From: Cryomorphaceae bacterium
GTDB lineage: Bacteria; Bacteroidota; Bacteroidia; Flavobacteriales_D; Sanyastnellaceae
Direction of reading: 5' to 3'
DNA length: 64,000 nucleotides
Assembly: GCA_016124575.1 (NCBI GenBank)
Contig: WGNM01000004.1
Span: 1-64,000 of the forward strand
How positions within the stretch are numbered: position 1 is the first letter of the stretch; every line of letters starts with the position of its first letter. Shown here piece after piece: positions 23,184 to 60,856 of this stretch. The position numbers were made by a program, and so were the translations under genes. A model generated the notes under the pieces. It had not been told where the DNA came from. It made no database searches and was given only the letters and a program-made list of their open reading frames with translations.

Positions 23184-23685
23184 TGCCGTAGTAACGCGGT
23201 GTAAAGTACCGTAAAATTGGACGAATACCATTTGGAAACGCCGGTGGAGAGGTCCATTTCGTGCGCCCTTCGATCTTCCAACCCGCTTTTTCCACCAACC
23301 AATCGAACTGCCAATCTTCGAATTCATGGTAATGTTGATCACGGATATCGTTTTTGTTGCGGTAGGCCGATGCAAACCATAGTCGCATAGGGATCGTTGC
23401 TATCAAGCGAGGAGCCTTGATGGCCGCCAACAAAGGCATTGGGTTGACCAAATGCTCAATTATCTCGAATGCTGTAACCGCGTCAAAACCATCTTTCACA
23501 ACCCCAGTAACGTCAAAATCAACATCTTCGCCATTGGTGTTGACAACTTCATATCCAGCCTTTTCCATCCACTCCGAGAAAGAGTTTCTCACACCCAGAT
23601 CCAATATTCTAGCCGGTGGTGGCAATTCCTGTTTAAGGAATTCAAGCGTGATCTCAAATCGACGTATTTGGTGGTTATTATTCAT
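23167..23685 (-). CDS. Class I SAM-dependent methyltransferase
   Basis: 172 residues, short for the class. The cofactor motif ARILDLGVRNSFSEW (about 26-40) keeps the acidic strand start but lacks the usual GxGxG glycines. Asp and Glu follow in motif II/III (DFDVTGVVKDGFDAVTAFEIIEHL), and the EIIEHL sequence is typical of methyltransferases of this type. The C-terminal part (HEFEDWQFDWLVEKAGW) matches the FxxxELxxLLexaGF region. It is divergent from the flippase gene and convergent with the glycosyltransferase gene. The setting suggests methylation of a surface sugar or lipid, which is inference. Confidence 0.82.
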   Translation of the reverse strand: MNNNHQIRRFEITLEFLKQELPPPARILDLGVRNSFSEWMEKAGYEVVNTNGEDVDFDVTGVVKDGFDAVTAFEIIEHLVNPMPLLAAIKAPRLIATIPMRLWFASAYRNKNDIRDQHYHEFEDWQFDWLVEKAGWKIEGRTKWTSPPAFPNGIRPILRYFTPRYYGISARR

Positions 23686-23749
23686 ATCAAAGTCCTCTGC
23701 TGTTTATACAATTCTTAACTTCCGCCAGAATTCCAGAAATCTACTAGAC

Positions 23750-25228
23750 TTGGGCGTCGTTATAAATCAAGCCTCAAAGAACGCTATTTCCATTTTAATT
23801 GGCACCATTCTCGGAGCCGTTAATACCATTCTCATTTTACCAAAAGCCTTTGAGGGATTCGAAGAAGGATGGGGACTGTTGAAAGTCATGACAGCGTATG
23901 CATTGATATTTTCGCAGTTTTTTCACGGAGGCATACCAAACACGGTGATACGCTACTTTCCCCAGCTCACCATTCAAACACGTCCGGCCTTTCTCCGCTG
24001 GGCATTCACCATTCCCGTTTTGGGAAGTGTTATTTTCCTGCTTCTTTTTTTACTCTTGGGCAACGACACCCTGCGACTTGTCCAAGAAGGAGACGCCGCT
24101 TTGCTCCAGCCCCACCGTTGGGAGCTCATCATTTTGACCATTTCTCTTATTGTCTTTTACGCATTGAACGGTTATCTCAGTGCCGTTTTGAAGACAACCG
24201 TGTATCAATTTCTGAATGAAACCTTTTTGAAGGCCTGGTTCATGATCGTTGCCCTGCTTTTTTGGTTCGACATGTGTTCGTTTGAAACCTTGTTGTTTAT
24301 ATACGTAGGCGGGTACGTGCTGGCGAGCGTTGTTTTGTTGATCCATTCGCTACAAGCAGGACTTTCGTTTTCACGCGGAGAATTTCCCCTTCAGAAAAAA
24401 GAGCTTTACAACTACAGCTTCTACTCCATTCTCGATCGTGGAGCTGCCATATTGGTGAACAACCTCGACATCATCATGGTAGGCATGCTCATCGGGTTGA
24501 ACGAAGTAGCATATTACACCCTCGCTTTCTACATCGGATCGGTTTCATTGCTACCTCAGAAATCGCTATTGTCTATTGCCAACCCAATCACCTCGAAAGC
24601 CATTGCTGAAAAAAACGATACTGCCTTGCACGACATCTATCGCCAAAGTTCGCAGGTTCAATTGCTTTTTGGCGGTTACATATTCGTGAGTATTTGGGTG
24701 TGCATCACCGAAATTTTGCACTTGCTGCCAAATCAGTATCAGGAAGGAATGTGGGTTGTCTTCTTCATCGGAATGGCTAAAATGTTTTACATGGCCACCG
24801 GTGTCTCGGGCGGAATACTTGTCTACAGCCAGCACTACCGATTGAATTTCAGACTCAATCTCATATTGATTTTCCTGACCATTGGCACCAATTATCTGTT
24901 CATCTCGCCAAGCCTATTCGACATGGGAATAACGGGTGCGGCGCTGGCAACGGCACTGTCGTTTATGCTGTACAACTCGATGAAAGTGTATTATGTCAGG
25001 AAATACTTTAAGATCACACCATTTACCAGCACCTACTACATAACCATCCTTTTGTTGGTGGCCATGAGTGCATTGTTTTATTGGCAGCCGTTTCTCAACT
25101 ATCCGTTCGTAGCTATATTGGTAAAAGGGATGTTGACGACTGCATTGACTTTTGGAGTGGCGTATTATTTCAAATTGGCTCCAGAAGCATTTGGCATGCT
25201 GGCGCGGATGAAAACGCGGAACAAATAG
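23750..25228 (+). CDS. Polysaccharide flippase (Wzx-like, MOP superfamily), TTG start
   Basis: 492 residues with about 12-14 hydrophobic segments, from NAISILIGTILGAVNTILIL at the N-terminus to GMLTTALTFGVAYYFKLAP. Members translocate lipid-linked oligosaccharides across the inner membrane. The open frame extends upstream into the divergent methyltransferase gene, but that part has no membrane segments and is antisense to a real gene. The family's start, MGVVxxQxxKNxIS, is matched exactly from the TTG at 23750 (then GVVINQASKNAIS), so I take that as the true start. The stop is two bases from the convergent DUF2147 gene. Together with the nearby glycosyltransferase it suggests surface-glycan export. 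Confidence 0.9.
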   Translation: MGVVINQASKNAISILIGTILGAVNTILILPKAFEGFEEGWGLLKVMTAYALIFSQFFHGGIPNTVIRYFPQLTIQTRPAFLRWAFTIPVLGSVIFLLLFLLLGNDTLRLVQEGDAALLQPHRWELIILTISLIVFYALNGYLSAVLKTTVYQFLNETFLKAWFMIVALLFWFDMCSFETLLFIYVGGYVLASVVLLIHSLQAGLSFSRGEFPLQKKELYNYSFYSILDRGAAILVNNLDIIMVGMLIGLNEVAYYTLAFYIGSVSLLPQKSLLSIANPITSKAIAEKNDTALHDIYRQSSQVQLLFGGYIFVSIWVCITEILHLLPNQYQEGMWVVFFIGMAKMFYMATGVSGGILVYSQHYRLNFRLNLILIFLTIGTNYLFISPSLFDMGITGAALATALSFMLYNSMKVYYVRKYFKITPFTSTYYITILLLVAMSALFYWQPFLNYPFVAILVKGMLTTALTFGVAYYFKLAPEAFGMLARMKTRNK

Positions 25229-36065: not shown

Positions 36066-39000
36066 CTACGACAACTGGAAGCGCAAAGTCAATCCTGAAC
36101 TTATGTTCGACGTAGGGAATGCGGTAGAAATTTTAGGTCTGGTTAACTGGTGATCGAAGAAGAAACGAAGAGTCAGTTTCTTCGAAACCTCTAGGTCAGC
36201 AGTAGTTTTCAAGCTAAAGATTCTCTGACCTGCAGTTGGTTGATTCTGCAGCTCTTGCATTTTTCTGATAATCGTCACATTGTCTCTAATCGTCAAATCT
36301 GCACGAAGCGAAAGCTGGGTATCTTTCAACATTTCCACTGGCAATTTTCCACGTTTGCGATAGAACGGGTTTGGCACTTCGGTAAAGCGATATCCCAATC
36401 CAAGGATGATAGAGTTGCCTTTGGTCTCGGTAATTTGATAGTTGGCAAGTCCTAAGCTAATCATGCGGTCACGAGCAAATTCAACTCGGATTTGCGGGTC
36501 ATTTTTCCCTTTGGTTTTCAGTGTCATGTCGAATCCTACCAACGGCGCCATTTGCTCGCTGATGCTTACAGTATTGATCTGACGTTGAGGAATAAAGTTG
36601 GCAAACTCACTAGCATCTGTTGCTGTTGGACGACCGGCCGCATCTTCTTCGTAGTTCAAATTGGTCACATAGCTTGTGTTCATGGTTGAACGGTATGTAT
36701 GGTTGACATTGAACTGCTTGAAGTACTTCTTAATTGACTGAATCTTCGTCATCCCGTCGTAAGTGATTCTCCAGTTAGGAGCCATTGTTGTTTTAAATGG
36801 ATCAAGTTTCACTTTCGAAGCATCAGTGCCTGTATAAGCGGCTAGGAATGCGGCTATGGTTACATCTTGAGAAGTAGGACCCCATCCATCGTAATACCCG
36901 TTCGGGTTCGGCGCATCGAGGCGATACGTTTCTGCATTCAACCGTTCAGAAACGGCCAATCTGTTCAACAAGAACGCATCAAAAACATCCGAATTGAAGT
37001 CTTTGTCATCTTTTGTAAAAGCAGTTCTCCACGTAATAATCGACGCAGAGAAATTACCCGTTTCCACTGGCGATTGGAACTCGTAATCATTCACGAGTGG
37101 GTCGTCATTGAAACGGAAGAAGCTCTGCAAATTCCGTGATTCTTGCCGAGTTGCTGTAAGCTCAATCTTCAAGTACTTAATCGGTTCTAAATTCGCACGT
37201 AAGTTCCACGTTTCAGAGAACGTTTCGGAATACGGATTGTTCAGATAAGGCGATTGAATCAGCCAGCCTTTCTGCGAAGCCATGACTGCAAAATTGTCGA
37301 CTTCATTTCCAAAGACATCCGTGTTCTGTTGTCCAAGAATAAACGGTAAACCAGGTGCATTGAATTGCGGATCCATTCCCACAAGTTGTGTTTTCTGGGC
37401 ATATCCTGGCAGCATTAAGCCTTCATTCTTGGTGTATGAACCAGAAACATTGCGCACCATCATCAAGAACCTTAGAGCTTCATGAAGCGGGTTTATTTTT
37501 TCCTTGTCCTTTTTTTCTTTTTCCTCAACATCCCCGAAACCATCACGATCTTGGTTATTTGTTTTACCACCCTTTCCCTTCTGAGAAGTACTGTTGATCT
37601 CCTTCAAAATTGGAACCTTGTTGTACAGGTTCGTCATATTCGCTTGAGCGCTTAGCGACAAGTTGCGGGAGTTCTGAATGGTATGACCTAGTGAATCTTG
37701 GCTAAACGGCGCGCGATCCCAACGATACGAAGCCGCGTAGGTTGCATCAGAAGACAAGAAATCCAAGATTGGAATTTTGTCGAATGGCACCTTATACGAA
37801 AGCGACGTATTGTGGTTGTAGTTCGTAGTCTCACCAAAATTTCTGATGTTGTTCCAAACGGTATCTTTATATGCAGTATACCAGTCGACATCCTCCTTAT
37901 TAATTACACCGGCAGGTTCACCAATCAATGCCAAGTTATTTGCGCTGTAGTTGAATTTCAATCCTTTCGTAATATCATAAGCCACGTTGTATGTCCGCGT
38001 CCAGTTCCATGTTTTCATGGCCTGTGTTTGGATCAGCACATTGGTTTCAACCCCAAACAATTCAGCGGTGTTGTTGCGCACCCTGCTTGTTTCATATGAC
38101 CTATTCATTGTAGAATTAAATCCAAACGATTTTATTCCAGTGTAGAAATTGAAATCTTTGAGCCATTTCATATACGCCGCCTTCGACACAAAACCAATGT
38201 TTGCGAATGGCTTCACCTCTTTGGGTTTGTTATTGAACGTATAGTTCAAACCACCTGTATAGTTCTTTTGCATTTGGAACTCCAGGTTGATATCGCGTCT
38301 ATATGTCTCATTGTAACCGTACGACACCGAGAAATTCCCGATATCATAAAAGTGTGGCTTATCTGACTTTTGTTTTTCTTTCTTACCGCCTTTCTCCCCT
38401 TCTTCGGTCAAATCACCACCTTCCTTTTCTTTACCCGGTTTTGGTTTTTTCGGTCCGCCGCCTTTTGGATCAATTTTAACGTTTGTAAAGTTTATGCTCC
38501 TTCGTCGGATGTACGACTGCGACTTCTTTCTGCGCTCAGGCGTGAGGTCGCGGTCAGCCATTTCAATATCAGGAGCCAGCGGATCAAACTGTGGCGTGCT
38601 AACGGTTTCCGAATATCCCAAATACATTGGAAGCTGTACACCGAGGTTTTCAGGGAAGAACTTACCAAGCTGAAGGGTCGTATTGGCATCTACTCCACGC
38701 TTAGTTTCGCGCTGACGTTCAAGCACCGATTGCTCCAAAGTTCCCCAACCTGGTGTCGACATGTTTGCCGCCACAGAAAGATTTCCAAAATCAGCCAAGT
38801 TAGCATTCATGCGCGCCACAGCAGCCCATCCACCCTTTTCATTGAAATCAGTCAAACGCAACTCGTTCACCCAGATATTGGCACATTTTGCTAAACCGTC
38901 ATCGCTACTGAACAGGTTGTTGTCTTTATCAGGGTTTCTGACACCAATCATTACTACAATAACATTCGCAAGGTTCGGATTACCTTTAACTCGTAGAACA

Positions 39001-42000
39001 GATTTACCATCTTCTTTGACAAATTCCTGGAAGGTTGGATAACCAACAGGGCGGGAGATTTTGAGGTTTTGCAACTTCTCAAACTCAATTTCCACGTCGT
39101 TTTCTTCTGGCCAAATCAGATCTTCATTCCCCGTATACCACGGAGTAGTTTTCAGCGGAATCTCGTATTCGTAGTAGTTCTCATTGAAATCACTACCCAG
39201 GCGAACAAACACCGTCAGATCTTTGTCGTTCAGCGTAGTACCATCAGGACCTGCTTCAGCGTGCGCGTACATTTTCAACTTTTTGTACATCCGCATATCG
39301 TAACTGATATTTCGATATGCAGCACGTGCGTCACCATCTTGAAGATTGCAAATCTCAAGAGACAACGATTGCTCATTCAAACGGCGTTGGTTGGCAGTTC
39401 CCACGTCAATTTCACGAATGATACCTGGCGGGATAACATAAGGCACAGGTTCTCTGTTACCATTTTCTTCGATGTTAACTGCAGAGATTGTAAATGTGGT
39501 CGGACTCGGGTCATTCTGTTCAATTTCCTGAGGACCTTCTAGCGAACCAATGTATTTCCACCACTCCCCACGAATCAATTCTAAACGTGCAAAGCGCAAT
39601 GTGGCCTCTTCAGACCAACCCTTCATGAACATACGTATGAATCGAATAGAGCGGAAATCGGTGATTCCCCCTACCTTCTTTTCAAACTCACGAATTGGAA
39701 TTTTGAATTGATACCAGCGGACAGTTTTTTGCTCTCCATTGGCTACTTCTACTGTTTTCTCGAAGCTATCAGTGATGTAGTTATTACCGATATTCCCCTC
39801 ACCGAGGTTTTGTGGTCGCAGAGAAACCTTGTATTGATAGTAGCTTTCTATTGTGCTCAGAGTAATATCCTGGTTAATATCTTCCGTATTCGGAATGGTA
39901 GTGGCCGCAATTGGATAACCGTCCGGAGTGCGGGTATCTGAGTTACCTTCGTATCCGTTGAAGTTTTTGTATCGACGTAAAACACTCCAATCTTCATTTT
40001 GGGCTGTAGGATTGCGGAAAAATTGGAAATCATCTGCTGATGGGTCACTCGAGTAAGCATTGTAGGCTGCAGGATCCAAGAACCCCTCTACTTGAGTGAG
40101 CCAATTTTGGAAATAATCTCTTTCATCGGCACTATTCAATCCGTCTAACCCAATATCTTGCGTGATGTAATTGCCACTCGAGTTATCGAAAGCATTAACC
40201 ACGTTAAAGATGGCTGGATCGGGTGTAACACCCCATGTTGTTTGCAGCGTATCATTGTCTTGGTTCGGACTTGGCAAACCATTTTCGTATGACAATTGAG
40301 AATCGTTCAAGACATCCTCAGAAACATTACCGAGGTTGAAATACAACTCTCCTCCATTGATGTTTTCAGAATCACTATTGAAAGGATCCATCAACCAAAA
40401 CTGGATAAATTGGATGTTTGAAGCTTCGAAATCGGTTGTTACTAGCGAACGTTGAATTCCGCCCCAGCGCGAGTCTGGCTCCACAAGAGTACCATCCGTA
40501 TTTAACCCAGAAGAAATTCCAGGTGTCCCATCGGGCAATTCATAGTTGTATTGTCCGCGTTCATTCGGATAGAAAGTCAAATCCAAAGTCGGAATTAGAG
40601 GAGGAGTACCTGTAGCCAATTCGCGTTTAGGAAACACTTCACCTTCAAGCACTTCACGCATCCGATGATCACTCCTCAAATCAACTGGAACCTGACCGTC
40701 TGTCAATCCATTCCCCTGGAAAAATTGCGGATCGATGTTGTACCACGACAATTTCGCTCGGTTGTAGTTATAAACGAGAGAATCTTCCAAATTCCCTTCA
40801 GGGAAGAGGTCGGTCTGTAATTTCGGAGTACTGGCAAGAAACCATTGGCTGATGTTGCGAATATCGATAACCGATTGGCTACCTTCAAAATCGTCAAGAT
40901 AAGAGTTCCCAGTTTTACCTATAGCCTTCGCGTGGCCTGGAATCATATATGCTGCTTCAGCCGAAAGATCAACATTTGAAACCGCCTTGGTATCGATAAA
41001 CGGAATTCTATCGACCATGCGCGTAATGAACGGACTTTCCTTTTGGTAAGCCATATCGATACCCAGGAGCGTATTGTTCACCGGTTCATCGCCGATGTTT
41101 ACCTTTTGAGTGAGCGGACGTTCGCGCAGGTTCAAGATCGTCGCACCAAGGTTCAAGTTGTCGCTAACCTCATAATCGAACCTACTTCCCAGCATCGTTC
41201 GCATCTGAATATTGAACAGAGAATTACTTTCGAGTGAGATATTGATAGGTTGACCAGAGTCTAGCAATCCTTGGTTAAGGATCTTCACCCTACCCAAGTT
41301 ATAGTCGACCGTATAATCTTGGTTTTCAACCAACTTAACACCACCTGCGGTAACAGTGACCGAACCTTGCGGCACGTTCAAAGCGTTTAGTGAGATATCT
41401 GACGAAGACGAAGATTGATACTGTCCGCGAAGTTTGAACCTATTCAGTGCAGGTATTTGCTGAGCAGCTGTTTTGGTTGAGTCGTATAACGGTTGGAAGA
41501 CAATTGTATTGATGAGCGATTGTGCCAGGTTTGGGTCAGACACTTGCGACTCAATAACAGACTTTAGATGTTCTCCAAAAGGTTCAACCACAGGGAAGAA
41601 TACCCGCCCCGTTTGCGCTTGGATGGTACCCCCTTGTGTGGCAGCATTGTCGATGAAATCGAAGAAGCCATCTTTATTCGGGAAATTATTGACATCCAGT
41701 CGGTCGAGGTTTATCAATTGAAGCAGTAGCTGACCTTCCAGAGGTTGTCGAGGAATATAGTTTAGGTCGATACCTGTTGACGGGTCATTGTACCATACAT
41801 CAAACCTAAAATTATCCTTATTGACACCAAACGCACCGATGTTGTATACGTTCTTCATCATCAAATCCCATAGCGGAGAAGGGTCACCATTGTCGAGGTT
41901 CACACGTGTTATTGATGCTTTCAGCATTTTGAGCACCAGTGCGCTTGGCGCCGTGAAACCATCCTGAGACAACGTACCCACTTGGTATGTTTGTCCGTTC

Positions 42001-43439
42001 AGCGTATATTCATAAGACACCGCCAACACCTCAGCATTGTTCAACGCTTGGCGCAACGAGATGAATCCCAATCGGCTATTGTAGGTGTATTCTGACGTAG
42101 TAAGTTTTCTAGCGTTACCTACCCTTTCATAGTGAATACCTTGTTGGTAACCCATGTTCATGGCGGCAATGGCGGCATTGGCCCCCGTGTAGTTCATGAC
42201 ATTTGGGTTCGTAGTGAAATCGGTGAAGATATCGTTGTTCAGGTTGGAAGGGTTACGTGACGCATTGATTTCAAGGTCAGGACCATCGGAAAGCAAACCG
42301 ACAGGGAGGTCGGAAGATATATAGTTCGGGTGTTCCCCGAGATCGGTAACCGCGATAACGTTTCTAACATCTTGCGTGTTTGCTTGCAGATTCACCGCCC
42401 ACACCTCGATACGCGTGATGTTTACTCCAGAGTTAACAACCGGTAAACTCCGCATAGCGTTATCGTATTGATCGCGGAAATAAGTCGACAGGAAGTAGTG
42501 TTTATTTGCTTCGTAGTTATCAGCGCGGATATCGAACAATTGCGTTTGCGCCCCACCCTGCACTTGAATGTCTTTACGTTCACCTTGTTGCTGAGAGAAA
42601 ACCGTAGTATTTCGCAGACGTCCGAACTGCGTTTCCATTTTCAGACCGAATAGACTTTGGCTACCCGTAATCAACGTCCCGCGGAGCGGCAGGCTTACGT
42701 TACCTGCTTCAATTTTCTTGATTATTTCATCTTCATCGCCCGTGTATTCCAGCTTCATTTGGTTTTCGAAGTTGAAAGTCGCCTCGGTATTAAACTGCGT
42801 GGTAAGCTGCATTTTGGTACCGATGTTACCTACCAGATTCAACTGAATACGTTGATCAAAATCGAACGTTGTTATTCTGCGTTGACGTTCAGGGATACGT
42901 GGGTTTTCTGTTTTTGACGTATTGAAACCGAAAGTAAGTTCAGCTGAACCTTGCGGACGGATTTCAATTTCATTGCTACCGAAGATGTTCTTGAAACCTT
43001 CACCACCCACGTCTAGTTTTGGTGCCCAGGCGCGATCTGCTTCATCTTCTTCTTCCTGGCGTTTGTTCCAATATTCGCTTAAGTTCGAACGGATATCGTA
43101 GTTCAGGTATTCATCAAGAGTGTAGGAAGTAGCGCTTCGGAAAACGATGGAATCGCCAATCATTTGCACCACCACATACCCACCAGTTTCTTCGTCGTAT
43201 TGAACGTCGTAATGAATGTTTTCGGGCCAATCAAGGCTCACTCCTCCCGTGTTCTCAACCGGATTGAAAGGATCTTCACCATGCGGCATGGGCAAGTCGA
43301 CCTTGCCTGTATCAGCCACAATGGGTTTATAGACATGGCGATTTTCTTTCCACCCGGCCGGCAGTTCAACTGCAGATCCAGCGAAGATGATCGCTAATAA
43401 CGAACCTATAAAGAAGTACTTGACCGCTCTCCCCAACAT
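36066..43439 (-). CDS. sprA: T9SS outer-membrane translocon SprA (Sov)
   Basis: 2457 residues, the normal very large size. SprA is the 36-strand outer-membrane channel of the type IX secretion system, through which folded cargo with C-terminal sorting domains is exported. Seen here: an N-terminal signal (LLAIIFAGSAVELPAGW), the SprA N-terminal region with KLDVGGEGFKNIFGSNEIEI and IRPQGSAELTFGFNT, MKLEYTGDEDEIIKKIEAGN, EVLAVSYEYTLNGQTYQVG and VDYNLGRVKILNQGLLDSG. The C-terminal half is Asn/Tyr/Thr-rich strand sequence ending in a terminal strand (SSGLTLRFQLS). The Lys/Gly-rich insertion around PKGGGPKKPKPGKEKEGG is an extracellular or periplasmic loop. It begins three bases after ruvA, inside the maeB-ruvA-sprA operon. 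Confidence 0.97.
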   Translation of the reverse strand: MLGRAVKYFFIGSLLAIIFAGSAVELPAGWKENRHVYKPIVADTGKVDLPMPHGEDPFNPVENTGGVSLDWPENIHYDVQYDEETGGYVVVQMIGDSIVFRSATSYTLDEYLNYDIRSNLSEYWNKRQEEEDEADRAWAPKLDVGGEGFKNIFGSNEIEIRPQGSAELTFGFNTSKTENPRIPERQRRITTFDFDQRIQLNLVGNIGTKMQLTTQFNTEATFNFENQMKLEYTGDEDEIIKKIEAGNVSLPLRGTLITGSQSLFGLKMETQFGRLRNTTVFSQQQGERKDIQVQGGAQTQLFDIRADNYEANKHYFLSTYFRDQYDNAMRSLPVVNSGVNITRIEVWAVNLQANTQDVRNVIAVTDLGEHPNYISSDLPVGLLSDGPDLEINASRNPSNLNNDIFTDFTTNPNVMNYTGANAAIAAMNMGYQQGIHYERVGNARKLTTSEYTYNSRLGFISLRQALNNAEVLAVSYEYTLNGQTYQVGTLSQDGFTAPSALVLKMLKASITRVNLDNGDPSPLWDLMMKNVYNIGAFGVNKDNFRFDVWYNDPSTGIDLNYIPRQPLEGQLLLQLINLDRLDVNNFPNKDGFFDFIDNAATQGGTIQAQTGRVFFPVVEPFGEHLKSVIESQVSDPNLAQSLINTIVFQPLYDSTKTAAQQIPALNRFKLRGQYQSSSSSDISLNALNVPQGSVTVTAGGVKLVENQDYTVDYNLGRVKILNQGLLDSGQPINISLESNSLFNIQMRTMLGSRFDYEVSDNLNLGATILNLRERPLTQKVNIGDEPVNNTLLGIDMAYQKESPFITRMVDRIPFIDTKAVSNVDLSAEAAYMIPGHAKAIGKTGNSYLDDFEGSQSVIDIRNISQWFLASTPKLQTDLFPEGNLEDSLVYNYNRAKLSWYNIDPQFFQGNGLTDGQVPVDLRSDHRMREVLEGEVFPKRELATGTPPLIPTLDLTFYPNERGQYNYELPDGTPGISSGLNTDGTLVEPDSRWGGIQRSLVTTDFEASNIQFIQFWLMDPFNSDSENINGGELYFNLGNVSEDVLNDSQLSYENGLPSPNQDNDTLQTTWGVTPDPAIFNVVNAFDNSSGNYITQDIGLDGLNSADERDYFQNWLTQVEGFLDPAAYNAYSSDPSADDFQFFRNPTAQNEDWSVLRRYKNFNGYEGNSDTRTPDGYPIAATTIPNTEDINQDITLSTIESYYQYKVSLRPQNLGEGNIGNNYITDSFEKTVEVANGEQKTVRWYQFKIPIREFEKKVGGITDFRSIRFIRMFMKGWSEEATLRFARLELIRGEWWKYIGSLEGPQEIEQNDPSPTTFTISAVNIEENGNREPVPYVIPPGIIREIDVGTANQRRLNEQSLSLEICNLQDGDARAAYRNISYDMRMYKKLKMYAHAEAGPDGTTLNDKDLTVFVRLGSDFNENYYEYEIPLKTTPWYTGNEDLIWPEENDVEIEFEKLQNLKISRPVGYPTFQEFVKEDGKSVLRVKGNPNLANVIVVMIGVRNPDKDNNLFSSDDGLAKCANIWVNELRLTDFNEKGGWAAVARMNANLADFGNLSVAANMSTPGWGTLEQSVLERQRETKRGVDANTTLQLGKFFPENLGVQLPMYLGYSETVSTPQFDPLAPDIEMADRDLTPERRKKSQSYIRRRSINFTNVKIDPKGGGPKKPKPGKEKEGGDLTEEGEKGGKKEKQKSDKPHFYDIGNFSVSYGYNETYRRDINLEFQMQKNYTGGLNYTFNNKPKEVKPFANIGFVSKAAYMKWLKDFNFYTGIKSFGFNSTMNRSYETSRVRNNTAELFGVETNVLIQTQAMKTWNWTRTYNVAYDITKGLKFNYSANNLALIGEPAGVINKEDVDWYTAYKDTVWNNIRNFGETTNYNHNTSLSYKVPFDKIPILDFLSSDATYAASYRWDRAPFSQDSLGHTIQNSRNLSLSAQANMTNLYNKVPILKEINSTSQKGKGGKTNNQDRDGFGDVEEKEKKDKEKINPLHEALRFLMMVRNVSGSYTKNEGLMLPGYAQKTQLVGMDPQFNAPGLPFILGQQNTDVFGNEVDNFAVMASQKGWLIQSPYLNNPYSETFSETWNLRANLEPIKYLKIELTATRQESRNLQSFFRFNDDPLVNDYEFQSPVETGNFSASIITWRTAFTKDDKDFNSDVFDAFLLNRLAVSERLNAETYRLDAPNPNGYYDGWGPTSQDVTIAAFLAAYTGTDASKVKLDPFKTTMAPNWRITYDGMTKIQSIKKYFKQFNVNHTYRSTMNTSYVTNLNYEEDAAGRPTATDASEFANFIPQRQINTVSISEQMAPLVGFDMTLKTKGKNDPQIRVEFARDRMISLGLANYQITETKGNSIILGLGYRFTEVPNPFYRKRGKLPVEMLKDTQLSLRADLTIRDNVTIIRKMQELQNQPTAGQRIFSLKTTADLEVSKKLTLRFFFDHQLTRPKISTAFPTSNISSGLTLRFQLS

Positions 43440-56009: not shown

Positions 56010-57092
56010 ATGAAGTTCGAGAACCTTACCATCTGGATCATTTCGCCCGAAGCATGGGGGACGCAAAAAGTTTCGAAGCACCATTATGCCTTGGAGCTCG
56101 CTCGTCGTGACAACGAAATCGTATTTATAGAACCGCAAAATGCAAAAAATCCCCTGCGTGAAGTTTCACAAGGCATCACTGCATTCTCGTTCATCAGTTT
56201 TCCTGGACTCCGCTTTTTTCCGCGATTTCTGCGCAGATATCTCATCGAACGCGATTTTCGTCGCATTCAGAAGAAGACAGGCACCCGACCCGACGTGATA
56301 TGGTCGTTCGACAACAGCAGGCTCTTTGAGCTCGACGTATGGAAGACCTATGTCACATCGCTGCACCACGTTGTTGACCTCACCATGGATTTCAACCTTT
56401 GTACGGCCGCAAGCACATCACAATTGTGTTTAGGCACTACCAAGTTCATCGCTGCCAAATTGAGCAATTGCAACCCCAACAGTCACAACATCGGACATGG
56501 AGTGCAACTTTGGGAACGCAAACCGACGCATGGCAAAACCAGACGACCACGCGTTACATATACCGGGAATTTACTCATCAGATATCTCAATAGAGAATTG
56601 GTGTTGAGCGCTGTGGATCGCTATCCCAACGCCGATTTTATTTTTGTTGGCAGCTACAGCATCGACAACATGAACAATCAAGTAGATGCTGACAGTGTGG
56701 CTTTTATTGACGAGTTGAAACAGCGATCGAACTGTTTTTTGCTTGGCGCCTTAGAGAAAGCTGCTTACCATAAAGTTTTAGACGAAGCCGACATCTTCAT
56801 CGTCGCCTATCGCAGGCAATACTATGAGCAAGTGGCCAATCCGCATAAAATGCTTGAATTGTTGCTCACAGGCAGACCCATTGTCGCCAACGTATTGGAT
56901 GAATACATCGATTTGAAGTTGTTTGACATGAGCGACAGCACCACAGATTGGCTTGCTCTGTTGGGAGAAAAGCTCGAAACCTACCACAGCGAGCCACAAC
57001 ACCAAATTGAAAAACGCATTTCACACGCCCTTCGACAATCGTACACCCAGCAGGTAAACCACATAGAAGAACTACTGAATGACCAAAGTTAG
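56010..57092 (+). CDS. GT-B-fold glycosyltransferase
   Basis: 360 residues with no signal peptide. The N-terminal acceptor domain begins LTIWIISPEAWGTQKVSKHH and includes KTGTRPDVIWSFDNSRLFEL. The C-terminal donor domain has VTYTGNLLIRYLNRELV, PNADFIFVGSYSIDN and the typical ANPHKMLELLLTGRPIVANV. The pattern is close to teichuronic-acid-type (TuaH-like) glycosyltransferases, which I cannot confirm. First gene of a four-gene coupled cluster (GT, GT2, unknown, double GT). It overlaps the GT2 gene by 14 bases. Presumably builds a surface polysaccharide. Confidence 0.85.
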   Translation: MKFENLTIWIISPEAWGTQKVSKHHYALELARRDNEIVFIEPQNAKNPLREVSQGITAFSFISFPGLRFFPRFLRRYLIERDFRRIQKKTGTRPDVIWSFDNSRLFELDVWKTYVTSLHHVVDLTMDFNLCTAASTSQLCLGTTKFIAAKLSNCNPNSHNIGHGVQLWERKPTHGKTRRPRVTYTGNLLIRYLNRELVLSAVDRYPNADFIFVGSYSIDNMNNQVDADSVAFIDELKQRSNCFLLGALEKAAYHKVLDEADIFIVAYRRQYYEQVANPHKMLELLLTGRPIVANVLDEYIDLKLFDMSDSTTDWLALLGEKLETYHSEPQHQIEKRISHALRQSYTQQVNHIEELLNDQS

Positions 57093-57891
57093 CATCATCA
57101 TGGCCGTATTAAACGGAGAAGCCTGGATACAGGAAGCCATAGACAGTGTGCTCAACCAAACAATGGCAGATTGGGAGCTCATAGTGGTAGACAATGGCAG
57201 CAGTGATAGCACACAAGACATCGCGCGTGCGCCGGGTGACCCGCGAATAATTGTAGTGACAGAACCGCAACGCGGCGTAAGTTATGCGCGAAACCGCGGA
57301 CTAGAGATGGCGCGAGGGGCATACATCTGCTTTTTGGACAGCGACGATCGCTTGCCGAGAAACAGCTTGCAAGTGCGACTTGACGTTTTTGAAAATCGGC
57401 CACATTGCACCGTAGTTGACGGACGCGTAGACACCTACCACAGCACCTTTCAAACCATCGTTTCTCATTGGGAACCTAAACATAATGGACAGCCATTGTC
57501 TAGCATGCTCGCCTTGAGTAGCGATTATTTCCGCGGCATCACATGGATGATTGATCGCCGAGCCCTTGGGAGCATTCGGTTTCGAGAAGACATGGCCCAT
57601 GGTGAAGACTTCATTTTTATCATCGACATATTGAGCAGTGGCGGACAGCACAGCGCAACCACCCAGACCATTTACGATATTCGCAAGCGAGAAGGTTCAG
57701 CCATGTCGGACCTTGACGGCATTTCACTCGGCTACGATCAGATGTTAGAGCATCATGAACAGCACCCACTGTTTCAGCCAGTACGCAGCTTATACATCCG
57801 CCGCGTGAGGCGCATACTTTTTAGAAGTTATCTAAAAAAAATGAACCTTTACCAAGCCCTAAGGCACTGGTTGAAATGGACCTTGAAATGA
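57079..57891 (+). CDS. Family 2 glycosyltransferase
   Basis: 270 residues, GT-A fold: KVSIIMAVLNGEAWIQEAI at the N-terminus, DSVLNQTMADWELIVVDNGS, GVSYARNRGLEMARGAYICF and the metal-binding DSDDR (FLDSDDRLPRNSLQ). EDFIFIIDILSSGG lies near the acceptor site. GT2 enzymes are inverting transferases of polysaccharide assembly. The preceding and following genes overlap it, so all four are co-translated. Confidence 0.93.
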   Translation: MTKVSIIMAVLNGEAWIQEAIDSVLNQTMADWELIVVDNGSSDSTQDIARAPGDPRIIVVTEPQRGVSYARNRGLEMARGAYICFLDSDDRLPRNSLQVRLDVFENRPHCTVVDGRVDTYHSTFQTIVSHWEPKHNGQPLSSMLALSSDYFRGITWMIDRRALGSIRFREDMAHGEDFIFIIDILSSGGQHSATTQTIYDIRKREGSAMSDLDGISLGYDQMLEHHEQHPLFQPVRSLYIRRVRRILFRSYLKKMNLYQALRHWLKWTLK

Positions 57892-58424
57892 ACATCGTAA
57901 TCGCCATAGAAAATGTAGAACAATTGCTTGCAGGCGGCATAGTAGCGCACGCATTGCGAGGGGTGGCAATAAAAAATGTCTCATTCCTATTCTTAAACAA
58001 CCAAGAGACATTAACGCAAATGTCTGCCCACTGCGGACTAAATGATTTTGCACCTACCACGCAAGACAGCCAGCCCGATTTGATGTTTACCTTTTCAGAC
58101 TCAACCGCCGCGGCAACCACCAGAGCCAAACGAAAGTCCATTTATTTTAGCAAGTCCACAGACGGCGAAATCGAATTGAGCCAAGACGACATCTGCTTCG
58201 TGACAGACACCACCAGTGCGCGTATGTTGAAAGACAACAAACGCACCCACATCCACCTAACGGGAGCAATTGAGCTTGAGATCCCCGCATTTTATGAAGG
58301 TAAAGCAGAGATAGAAGAGCACATAAAAAGATTGCAACAAAACACTTATATAGGCGACGGACTTGCAGCAGTGCGGATTGCAGAGATACTAAAACACACC
58401 CTTTCACCAGAGCCCGGCACATGA
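57888..58424 (+). CDS. Unknown protein coupled to glycosyltransferases, possibly a reduced GT-B/epimerase-like domain
   Basis: 178 residues from the ATG at 57888, which gives the ATGA overlap with the GT2 stop; an in-frame ATG 12 bases upstream is possible. No signal or membrane segment. An N-terminal beta-strand (MNIVIAIENVEQLLAGGIVA) and the C-terminal GDGLAAVRIAEIL (residues 156-168) recall the closing GDGKAxERIxEIL of UDP-GlcNAc 2-epimerases (WecB type), and the middle FVTDTTSARMLKDNKRTHI could match their SGG-loop/donor region. The protein is far too short for a full GT-B fold. It may be a degenerate or accessory domain. It also overlaps the next gene by ATGA. Function unknown. Confidence 0.7.
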   Translation: MNIVIAIENVEQLLAGGIVAHALRGVAIKNVSFLFLNNQETLTQMSAHCGLNDFAPTTQDSQPDLMFTFSDSTAAATTRAKRKSIYFSKSTDGEIELSQDDICFVTDTTSARMLKDNKRTHIHLTGAIELEIPAFYEGKAEIEEHIKRLQQNTYIGDGLAAVRIAEILKHTLSPEPGT

Positions 58425-60856
58425 ACATACTCGTGCTAACATATTGGAGTTATAAGGAACCCCTGGTTCATGCAGCCACCATTGGGTACATCAAAGAAAT
58501 ACGCAAATACATTGGCGTTGAGGGGCAGATATACCTCTTAACCATGGAGAAAGAAGCCCTGCAATTATCGTCCACAGAGCGCCAAACAGCCGATAAAATG
58601 CTCGCCGAACACGGAATAGAACTGATAACTAAGAAATACCACTATTTCGGATTTCAAGCAGCACTTGCATGGATTAAGAACCTGCTTTGGCTAACAATCT
58701 TTTGCCGAAAAAAGAAAATCGACATCATACATGCACGGGGCAGCACAGCCGGACTGACGGCACACATCTTATCGCGATTGACAAAGAAAAAATTCGTTGT
58801 CGACGGATTTGAGCCCCATGCAGATTCCATGGTAGAAAACGGCACATGGAAAAAAGGGTCGCTATCATTCCGCATTTTGCATTGGTCAGAAAAGCAACAA
58901 GCGCGAAATGCTGCAGCCGTATTAGCGATGACCGAAAACATGGCCGATTACTCAGCAGAGGCCTATGGATACATTCCAGGGAATTTTTTCGTCAGGCCCG
59001 GATGTGTTGATTTAAGTGTTTTCAACGAGCACGTATCCGACATACGCGCGTCACTCGGGTTAACAGGAAAGCTCGTCTGCGTGTATGCCGGCAAGCTTGG
59101 CGGCATCTACTTAAAAGAAGAAGTCTTCGCCTTTTATTCAGCCTGTTACGAGCGATTTGGCGATCAATTCAGAGCCTTGCTTTTGAGTGACCACTCAGAT
59201 AGCGAAGTGGAGCTACTTGCCAAAAACCACCACTTACCAGCTGGCCTCGTGATACATAAGCACGTGTTGCACTCAGACGTTCCGAAATATCTTGCATCAG
59301 CCGATTTTGCCTTAAACCCAGTGAAGCCCGTTCCTTCAAAAAAATACTGCACATCTATTAAAGATGGGGAATATTGGGCGATGGGACTACCTGTGGTAAT
59401 AACACCGAACATTTCAAGCGATTCAGACCTCATAGAACGAGAGGAAATAGGGGTTATTTGGGACGGGTATGATCGCGATACGATGCAATCCGTTTTAGAC
59501 AGACTTGAAACTGTTTTATCGAAAGACCGCAGCGCCTTGCAGGCCAAGATTCGGAGAATCGCATTGGAGCGTCGAGATTTAAAAATAGCCTCAGAGAATT
59601 ACCGCCTCTTGTATGGCGAAAACGGACTGCTTCAGAAAGAGAGCAAACAATTTTTAGCCCTCATCTACAACAGTTTGCGAGACCCCCTATTTCAAAACCT
59701 CGTTTATTCGTACCTCGACAAGCAATTGGAAGAGCATCCCAACTACCGATTGAACCTCGTGACCTTTGAGCAAGATAAATATGCATTTACTCCTGAAGAG
59801 CAACAAAGGCACAAAATCCATTTGACCAGCAAGCGCATATATTGGCGACCAGTGAAGTACCACAGCGGCAATTTCAAACTCATTAAAAAAGTGCTTGATT
59901 TGACGAACGCCTTTTTAACAGCGACCAAAATCATACTTAGAAAACGACAAAATCTTGTTGTTTCCTTTGCGAATACCTCAGCAGTAATATCGCATTTTGT
60001 AGCACAATTCTTCCGAACACCACTATTGATATATTCATACGAGCCACACAGCGATTTTCTAAAAGAGTTTGGAATTTGGTCAACAAACAGCATTACATAC
60101 CAAATCATGCATCGCTTGGAGTGGAGAGTTGGTCGGAAAGCAGCATATGTCCTTACAGGAACCCGACACATGGTAGAAGCCTTAAAGGGAAAGACAAAAG
60201 GGCTCGTTTTCCGAGCGCCATCCAGCGCTGATGATCGTGTTTTTTACTTCGACAACCTTGCACGGCAGGAAATACGGGAGAAATACAATCTAAAGAACCG
60301 AAAAGTCATCGTTTACGTCGGCAAGTTCGGAGGCATCTATTACCGATCTGAAATCATTGGCTTTTTCGCTGCATTGCGTGCCCTCGACCCTGCTTACTTC
60401 TTATTTATCGTCAGTCCACAAGACCACCAAGAACTCACTACCATGTGTGGCGAAGGCGGCTTGAATACCGAAGACTACTGCATCACAGAAACGGCATCAC
60501 AAGCCGAAATACGAGGCTTTAATTCTGCTGCCGACATAGGTTTAACCGCAGTACCCCCCTATCCCAGTCAGCGTTTTCGTTCACCGGTAAAAGTTGGTGA
60601 ATACTTGATGTGTGGATTGCCATACATCACCATGCGTGGCGTTTCAGAAGACGACGAAGTTGCCGAGAAAAACAACGTCGGCATTGTTTTGTCTGCTTTG
60701 GATGCAGCACAAGCCGACGAAGCACATGATAAAATGCGAGAATTGTTTCAAGAAGACACCCATGCCTTGAGGAAACGATGCAGAGATGTTGGGATAGAGT
60801 ACCGCGGAAAACACCACGTAGATCAACTTTTTGATCGCTTACTGAGTGAAGTATAG
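58421..60856 (+). CDS. Double glycosyltransferase: two GT4-like enzymes in one chain
   Basis: 811 residues made of two homologous GT-B units, about 1-405 and 406-811, with landmarks about 410 residues apart. Unit 1: GFEPHADSMVENGTW (~128), YAGKLGGIYLKEEVFAFY (~222), SADFALNPVKPVPSKKYCTS, DGEYWAMGLPVVIT. Unit 2: SYEPHSDFLKEFGIW (~537), YVGKFGGIYYRSEIIGFF (~631), AADIGLTAVPPYPSQRF, VGEYLMCGLPYITM. The units diverge substantially, so the duplication is old. The chain starts directly in unit 1 with no signal or anchor. It overlaps the small unknown gene by ATGA and its stop is one base from the convergent LEA2 gene. It may add two sugars in sequence or act on alternating linkages; specificity is unknown. 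Confidence 0.88.
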   Translation: MNILVLTYWSYKEPLVHAATIGYIKEIRKYIGVEGQIYLLTMEKEALQLSSTERQTADKMLAEHGIELITKKYHYFGFQAALAWIKNLLWLTIFCRKKKIDIIHARGSTAGLTAHILSRLTKKKFVVDGFEPHADSMVENGTWKKGSLSFRILHWSEKQQARNAAAVLAMTENMADYSAEAYGYIPGNFFVRPGCVDLSVFNEHVSDIRASLGLTGKLVCVYAGKLGGIYLKEEVFAFYSACYERFGDQFRALLLSDHSDSEVELLAKNHHLPAGLVIHKHVLHSDVPKYLASADFALNPVKPVPSKKYCTSIKDGEYWAMGLPVVITPNISSDSDLIEREEIGVIWDGYDRDTMQSVLDRLETVLSKDRSALQAKIRRIALERRDLKIASENYRLLYGENGLLQKESKQFLALIYNSLRDPLFQNLVYSYLDKQLEEHPNYRLNLVTFEQDKYAFTPEEQQRHKIHLTSKRIYWRPVKYHSGNFKLIKKVLDLTNAFLTATKIILRKRQNLVVSFANTSAVISHFVAQFFRTPLLIYSYEPHSDFLKEFGIWSTNSITYQIMHRLEWRVGRKAAYVLTGTRHMVEALKGKTKGLVFRAPSSADDRVFYFDNLARQEIREKYNLKNRKVIVYVGKFGGIYYRSEIIGFFAALRALDPAYFLFIVSPQDHQELTTMCGEGGLNTEDYCITETASQAEIRGFNSAADIGLTAVPPYPSQRFRSPVKVGEYLMCGLPYITMRGVSEDDEVAEKNNVGIVLSALDAAQADEAHDKMRELFQEDTHALRKRCRDVGIEYRGKHHVDQLFDRLLSEV

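Follow-up and report, generated by a model that had tools for sequence, protein, structure and literature searches.

How do two homologous glycosyltransferase-like halves come to lie in one polypeptide, and what would such a protein make? The question is raised by a 64,000-nucleotide stretch of a Cryomorphaceae bacterium genome (positions 1 to 64,000 of contig WGNM01000004.1; hereafter, the window), in which a single 811-amino-acid open reading frame (ORF) with an ATG start spans positions 58421-60856 on the forward strand. On the basis of Pfam and BLAST searches and an AlphaFold2 prediction, the product is described here as a two-headed GT4-type glycosyltransferase.

Architecture and genomic setting of the two-headed protein

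Head A (residues 1-400; 58421-59620, forward strand), a member of family A, carries EPHAD at residue 131, YAGKLGGIY at 222, and GEYWAMGLP at 316. Head B (approx. residues 411-811; 59651-60853, forward strand), a member of family B, carries EPHSD at 541, YVGKFGGIY at 632, and GEYLMCGLP at 726. The heads are joined by a short linker with approximate boundaries (residues 401-410; 59621-59650, forward strand), the sequence of which is alike in most doubles of f1, the genome family that includes the window's genome, but unlike in the double at locus L078. When residues 1-400 are compared with residues 401-811, BLASTP returns a single alignment covering almost the full length (140 bits, E 4e-42, 96/392 identities, 24%), and phmmer matches the halves to each other at 8.6e-41. 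A sequence-only reading of the locus had pointed to two homologous halves in one ORF, with three shared motifs at an offset of about 410 residues and differences elsewhere, and it holds on all these points: the offset is exactly 410 for EPHxD (131 and 541), YxGKxGGIY (222 and 632), and GEYxxxGLP (316 and 726), and many of the residues that differ between the halves are conserved within the family of each half.

Five GT4-type Pfam models match the whole protein above their cut-offs, three of them over two stretches each. Head A alone exceeds the cut-offs of PF13579 (37.2 bits against 29.7), PF13439 (34.2 against 28.5), and PF13692 (29.5 against 27). Head B alone reaches the cut-off of no Pfam GT4 model, its sole match being to PF00534 (E 2.6e-4; 21.0 against 26.4 bits); it is named GT4-like because it is homologous to head A and because its fold matches those of GT4 enzymes. 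Twelve NCBIfam models matched the 811-amino-acid protein, none at its own cut-off, and the best PDB match was found at E 2.5e-3 by plain sequence and at 2.5e-5 and 3.2e-6 by profiles.

Structure prediction, which the same reading had named as a check, yielded two successive GT-B folds (mean pLDDT 90.8, pTM 0.84), so that the fold of GT4-type glycosyltransferases is predicted for both halves. The input for AlphaFold2 was an alignment of 12 full-length doubles, including that of the window and one (L078) from another genome family; an alignment in which stand-alone B proteins fell on the N half was kept out of folding, and its profile served for the PDB search. In comparisons with solved structures, in a list made up mostly of C-half matches, the C half resembles sucrose-phosphate synthase, MshA, and BshA at Z 32-35 (maximum 35.2), and the N half resembles PglA at Z 31 (maximum 31.0). 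PglA, BshA, MshA, PimA, and WaaG share the GT-B fold of a head (Z 27-35); however, these proteins are single-headed, and identity among the matches listed is 9-16%.

Three ORFs precede the two-headed gene on the same strand. The first (56010-57092) encodes a glycosyltransferase-like protein of 360 amino acids, matched by Pfam GT models at E 0.03-0.04 and by NCBIfam TuaH at 8.9e-6, all below cut-off; the second (57079-57891) encodes a GT2 glycosyltransferase of 270 amino acids (PF00535, 2.5e-32) and overlaps the ORFs on both sides. The third, a 182-amino-acid ORF (57876-58424), has a stop codon that shares bases with the start codon of the two-headed gene (ATGA) and occupies the slot in which a UDP-GlcNAc 2-epimerase-type gene lies directly upstream of the double in 6 of 11 f1 double loci (the call is based on PF02350 at 5e-106 in L109 and on BLAST clusters at the other loci). 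Its likeness to the epimerase is clear only in a C-terminal GDGLAxxRIAEI stretch (64% over 22 amino acids to L035), and a profile match has E 5.7e-7 in a two-sequence search. The reading frame is also preserved in the sister genome (approx. 74% identity, dN/dS 0.23). The ORF is possibly a shrunken relative of the epimerase.

A glycosyltransferase-like gene is found upstream in 10 of the 11 f1 double loci (one locus is cut by a contig end) and a GT2 gene in 8; downstream, a LEA_2 protein comes next in 8 and an M20 peptidase is encoded nearby in 10. To judge from these neighbour groups, which are single-linkage BLAST clusters that may lump paralogues, the glycan operon around the A-B double is largely conserved in f1. 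Elsewhere in the window, positions 23417-25228 (forward strand), approx. 31 kb from the operon, encode a polysaccharide-export-like membrane protein (PF01943, 1.3e-7; PF01554, 2.8e-6). Positions 36066-43439 (reverse strand) encode a very large protein of the SprA type (PF14349, 1e-183; 2457 amino acids), a type that belongs to type IX secretion.

Conserved residues and constraint in the two heads

The residues of both heads were compared across 86 domains, namely the N and C halves of 10 doubles, 60 further A-type domains, and 6 further B-type domains. Invariant in all of them are E-P-H (131-133/541-543), which includes what we assume to be the usual GT4 histidine (H133), E157/E567, Y230/Y640, K314/K724, G322/G732, P324/P734, D334/D744, G344/G754, and R385/R795. 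A second set, consisting of P193, Y222, G224, K225, G228, E317, and their partners, is invariant in 20/20 halves and varies in 0 to 3 of the other domains; in particular, K225, which in a HMMER alignment lies opposite the Arg of the GR of GlgM, is kept in 57/60 other A-type domains, and the position of E317 is occupied by Glu in 5/6 other B-type domains. Twelve distant A-like rows were excluded from the A group in these counts. Five distant B-like proteins of genome family f21 were counted apart; in these, the E317 position is Glu in 0/5 and the P193 position is Pro in 0/5, and the rest of the counted residues are kept.

GT4 enzymes commonly carry the Glu pair of the EX7E motif, a feature that is common rather than defining. 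Both heads keep the second Glu (E317, E727). In place of the first, head A has Tyr309 and head B Phe719, and Glu occurs at this position in 0 of the 91 domains counted. Because the first Glu is absent from all of these domains, its loss is a trait of the subfamily and not the decay of one half. Both heads differ from single-headed GT4-type enzymes in having GGxY together with Tyr/Phe in place of the first EX7E Glu. GT4 enzymes also have a second donor-phosphate Lys, which is not evident in the GlgM alignment. The heads thus depart jointly from the textbook GT4 enzyme, and neither appears decayed relative to the other.

Alongside these shared traits, the heads have patterns of their own. Next to the common motif, N halves carry CTSIKDGEYW and C halves RSPVKVGEYL, and W9 versus N417 and D128 versus Y538 separate N from C halves in 10/10 cases each; such head-specific patterns are in line with two specificities. 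With dN/dS values of 0.08 (N half) and 0.11 (C half) in the comparison with the sister genome (L031), both halves are under purifying selection.

The sequence-only reading had further regarded both modules as complete. The predicted GT-B folds, the retained residues, and the constraint bear this out, with the exception that head B by itself remains below the Pfam GT4 cut-offs. A loss of donor-site residues was sought and none was found: K225/K635, E317/E727, H133/H543, and K314/K724 are present in 10/10 N halves and 10/10 C halves. Fused transferases with one inactive half do exist, and bi-domain exostosins are on record; together with the sub-threshold score of head B, this raises the alternative that only one head is catalytic and the other binds the acceptor, the membrane, or a partner. 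We regard this as quite unlikely, given that every one of the 10 aligned f1 doubles carries the same conserved residues in its two heads, that constraint is similar on the two heads, and that each head is also found as a stand-alone protein. As far as can be judged from these patterns, it is probable that both heads are catalytically active.

Distribution and origin of the A-B fusion

An order-wide search (399 genomes, E <= 1e-60) matched 23 genomes, 11 with A-B doubles and 12 with single-headed proteins. All 11 doubles belong to f1, the window's own genome included, and the full-length A-B orthologues in the 10 other f1 genomes are 44-88% identical. In f1, 16 genomes matched: these 11, three with A only (G007, G019, G026), and two with B only (G008, G021). 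Completeness is 98-99% for G008 and G019 but only 78-87% for the remaining single-headed genomes (G007, G021, G026), from the assemblies of which a head could be missing. In a class-wide search with the C half as the query (395 genomes, E <= 1e-25), 74 genomes matched, and two heads in frame were found in G000 and G012 (A-B, f1), G204 (A-B, f18), and G231 and G508 (A-A, f45). A phylum-wide search (395 genomes, 1e-60) matched three genomes, the sole double being that of the window.

Family A consists of stand-alone enzymes that are common in Bacteroidota, and family B also occurs alone; on these occurrences, neither head depends on its partner to exist. Most stand-alone A proteins share 37-46% identity with head A, those of L020 and L022 33-34%. 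Head B is 33-40% identical to the stand-alone B proteins of L015, L018, L019, L076, and L077, and 28-29% to the B-like proteins of f21. Two f21 loci, L118 (6291-8858, reverse strand) and L119 (6642-9482, reverse strand), encode a B-like domain that follows approx. 440-530 residues, and their proteins have no Pfam match at 0.001. In L122 (2980-4995, forward strand), a 672-amino-acid protein combines a GT2 domain with a family-A-like GT4-type domain.

The sequence-only reading had explained the double by an ancient tandem duplication, in which one gene was duplicated in place and its copies then diverged. The halves are indeed homologous over almost their full length, and both neighbouring family-A genes (L049, L053, L056) and fused A-A doubles (L116, L117) exist, so duplication with fusion may occur in family A. 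However, separate phylogenies put the halves of the A-B double in different families, each with stand-alone members: in a quick 99-row tree, the N half groups with stand-alone members of family A, and a 21-row clade (99*) unites the C half with stand-alone B proteins. Forcing the 20 halves of 10 f1 doubles into a single clade lowers lnL by 201 and is rejected (p-AU 5.3e-5); by the trees and the AU test alike, the halves are not each other's closest relatives. For these trees, domains shorter than 300 amino acids were dropped, and 7 of 106 rows (near-copies or distant) were removed to give the 99-row tree; smaller trees contained 16 B rows (the five f21 B-like rows being set aside) and 9 A rows, or 39 A plus 4 B rows. 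When a distant GT4 outgroup is included, families A (9 rows, 100/100) and B (7 rows, 99/99) both come out as monophyletic, and the tree does not resolve how they relate to two other groups.

Because the halves join separate stand-alone families and one clade is rejected, the A-B double is best described as a fusion of diverged families. Read from these trees, families A and B descend from a remote common ancestor and the fusion came after their divergence, and duplication in place is very improbable as the origin of the double. A second, separate A-B fusion is likely in f18: the C half of its double (G204, L078/L115) lies outside the f1 C halves (p-AU 0.005, smaller B-row tree), and grouping of its N half with the f1 N halves gives p-AU 0.586 in the 99-row quick tree versus 0.048 in a 43-row careful tree. 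The interpretation of the A-only genes of f1 as broken-off N heads is not rejected (p-AU 0.255, 43-row careful tree), and the B-only genes of f1 cluster weakly (51/77) with the f1 C halves. Nor is monophyly rejected for the four A-A halves from f45 (p-AU 0.206).

Several other arrangements of these domains were encountered. The A-A double-headed proteins of L116 (6067-8523, reverse strand) and L117 (6114-8576, reverse strand), 819 and 821 amino acids long, come from two non-f1 genomes. Paired but separate family-A genes occur in L049 (7992-10432, with a four-base overlap, stop included), in L056 (7376-9980, coding parts separated by 173 bases), and in L053 (2-4348, approx. 2 kb apart). A candidate pair of unfused A-B neighbours in G132 (L105) was rejected, as the protein encoded just upstream of the B gene is an ordinary GT4-like one that has an ordinary EX7E sequence, lacks GGIY, and gives a weak family-A match (43.9 bits). 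A profile scan around six single-headed loci revealed no unfused A-B pair at the loci inspected, and the stretches scanned in L104, L106, L111, L112, and L113 gave no second hit (E up to 0.1) that could be left over from the missing head.

Proposed function and relation to known enzymes

The loci with a single head bear directly on the function of the double. In a comparison of four loci from the five single-headed f1 genomes, neighbours shared with the doubles were found upstream in L104 (B), L106 (B), and L112 (A) and downstream in L106 and L111 (A). Since single-headed loci share flanking genes with the doubles, related loci hold A-B, A, or B; and because A or B stands alone at such loci, each head is taken to make a linkage of its own, and the two steps look separable. 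The reading that we favour, and hold to be reasonably probable, is that the protein is a bifunctional GT4-type enzyme, the heads of which would add two successive, different sugars to one glycan. Each head would have its own donor and acceptor specificity, and the sugars would be added to one lipid-linked (or similar) glycan produced by this operon, probably a surface glycan. The side-by-side arrangement of the heads would spare the intermediate from travelling and, to judge from the fold relatives, the anomeric configuration would be retained.

Alternating or processive synthesis by two heads, as proposed from the sequence alone, is possible. On this view, the protein would be a polymerase whose alternating heads build a repeating polymer. 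In having two GT modules in one chain, the protein is like WbdA, the O-antigen mannosyl polymerase of E. coli O9/O9a and K. pneumoniae O3, both modules of which are GT4; the likeness is one of module layout. WbdA is described as a single polymerase chain with two GT modules, one for each linkage (PMC11231755). Unlike the WbdA system, however, the window's genome has no match to Wzt_C (an exporter without that domain would escape the search), and the A and B heads occur singly in relatives. Its two ABC2_membrane matches both lie on other contigs (C4, C32), and because Wzy_C matches are found on four further contigs (C7, C31, C33, C46), a Wzy-type route is present. Moreover, the single-headed relatives share the flanking genes of the double, which obligate alternation would hardly permit. 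By analogy with WbdA, a polymerase may be considered, but it is an unlikely reading of this locus.

The preferred two-step enzyme can be extended to the operon as a whole. A speculative suggestion, rather doubtful at present, is that one slot of the f1 operon is a plug-in site for heads, which may receive A, B, or A-B, and that in the last case an A-B disaccharide would be built as a unit by direct hand-over, possibly repeatedly. If so, the number and kind of heads would set the count and identity of the sugars added to the surface glycan.

Enzymes with two GT modules are already known in general; no description of this A-B family was met in the searches of open-licence papers. It illustrates that two halves of a single chain may be homologous without having arisen by duplication in place. 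The related loci with A, B, or both form a natural series, and the glycans of these bacteria could reveal what each head adds and what effect the fusion has.
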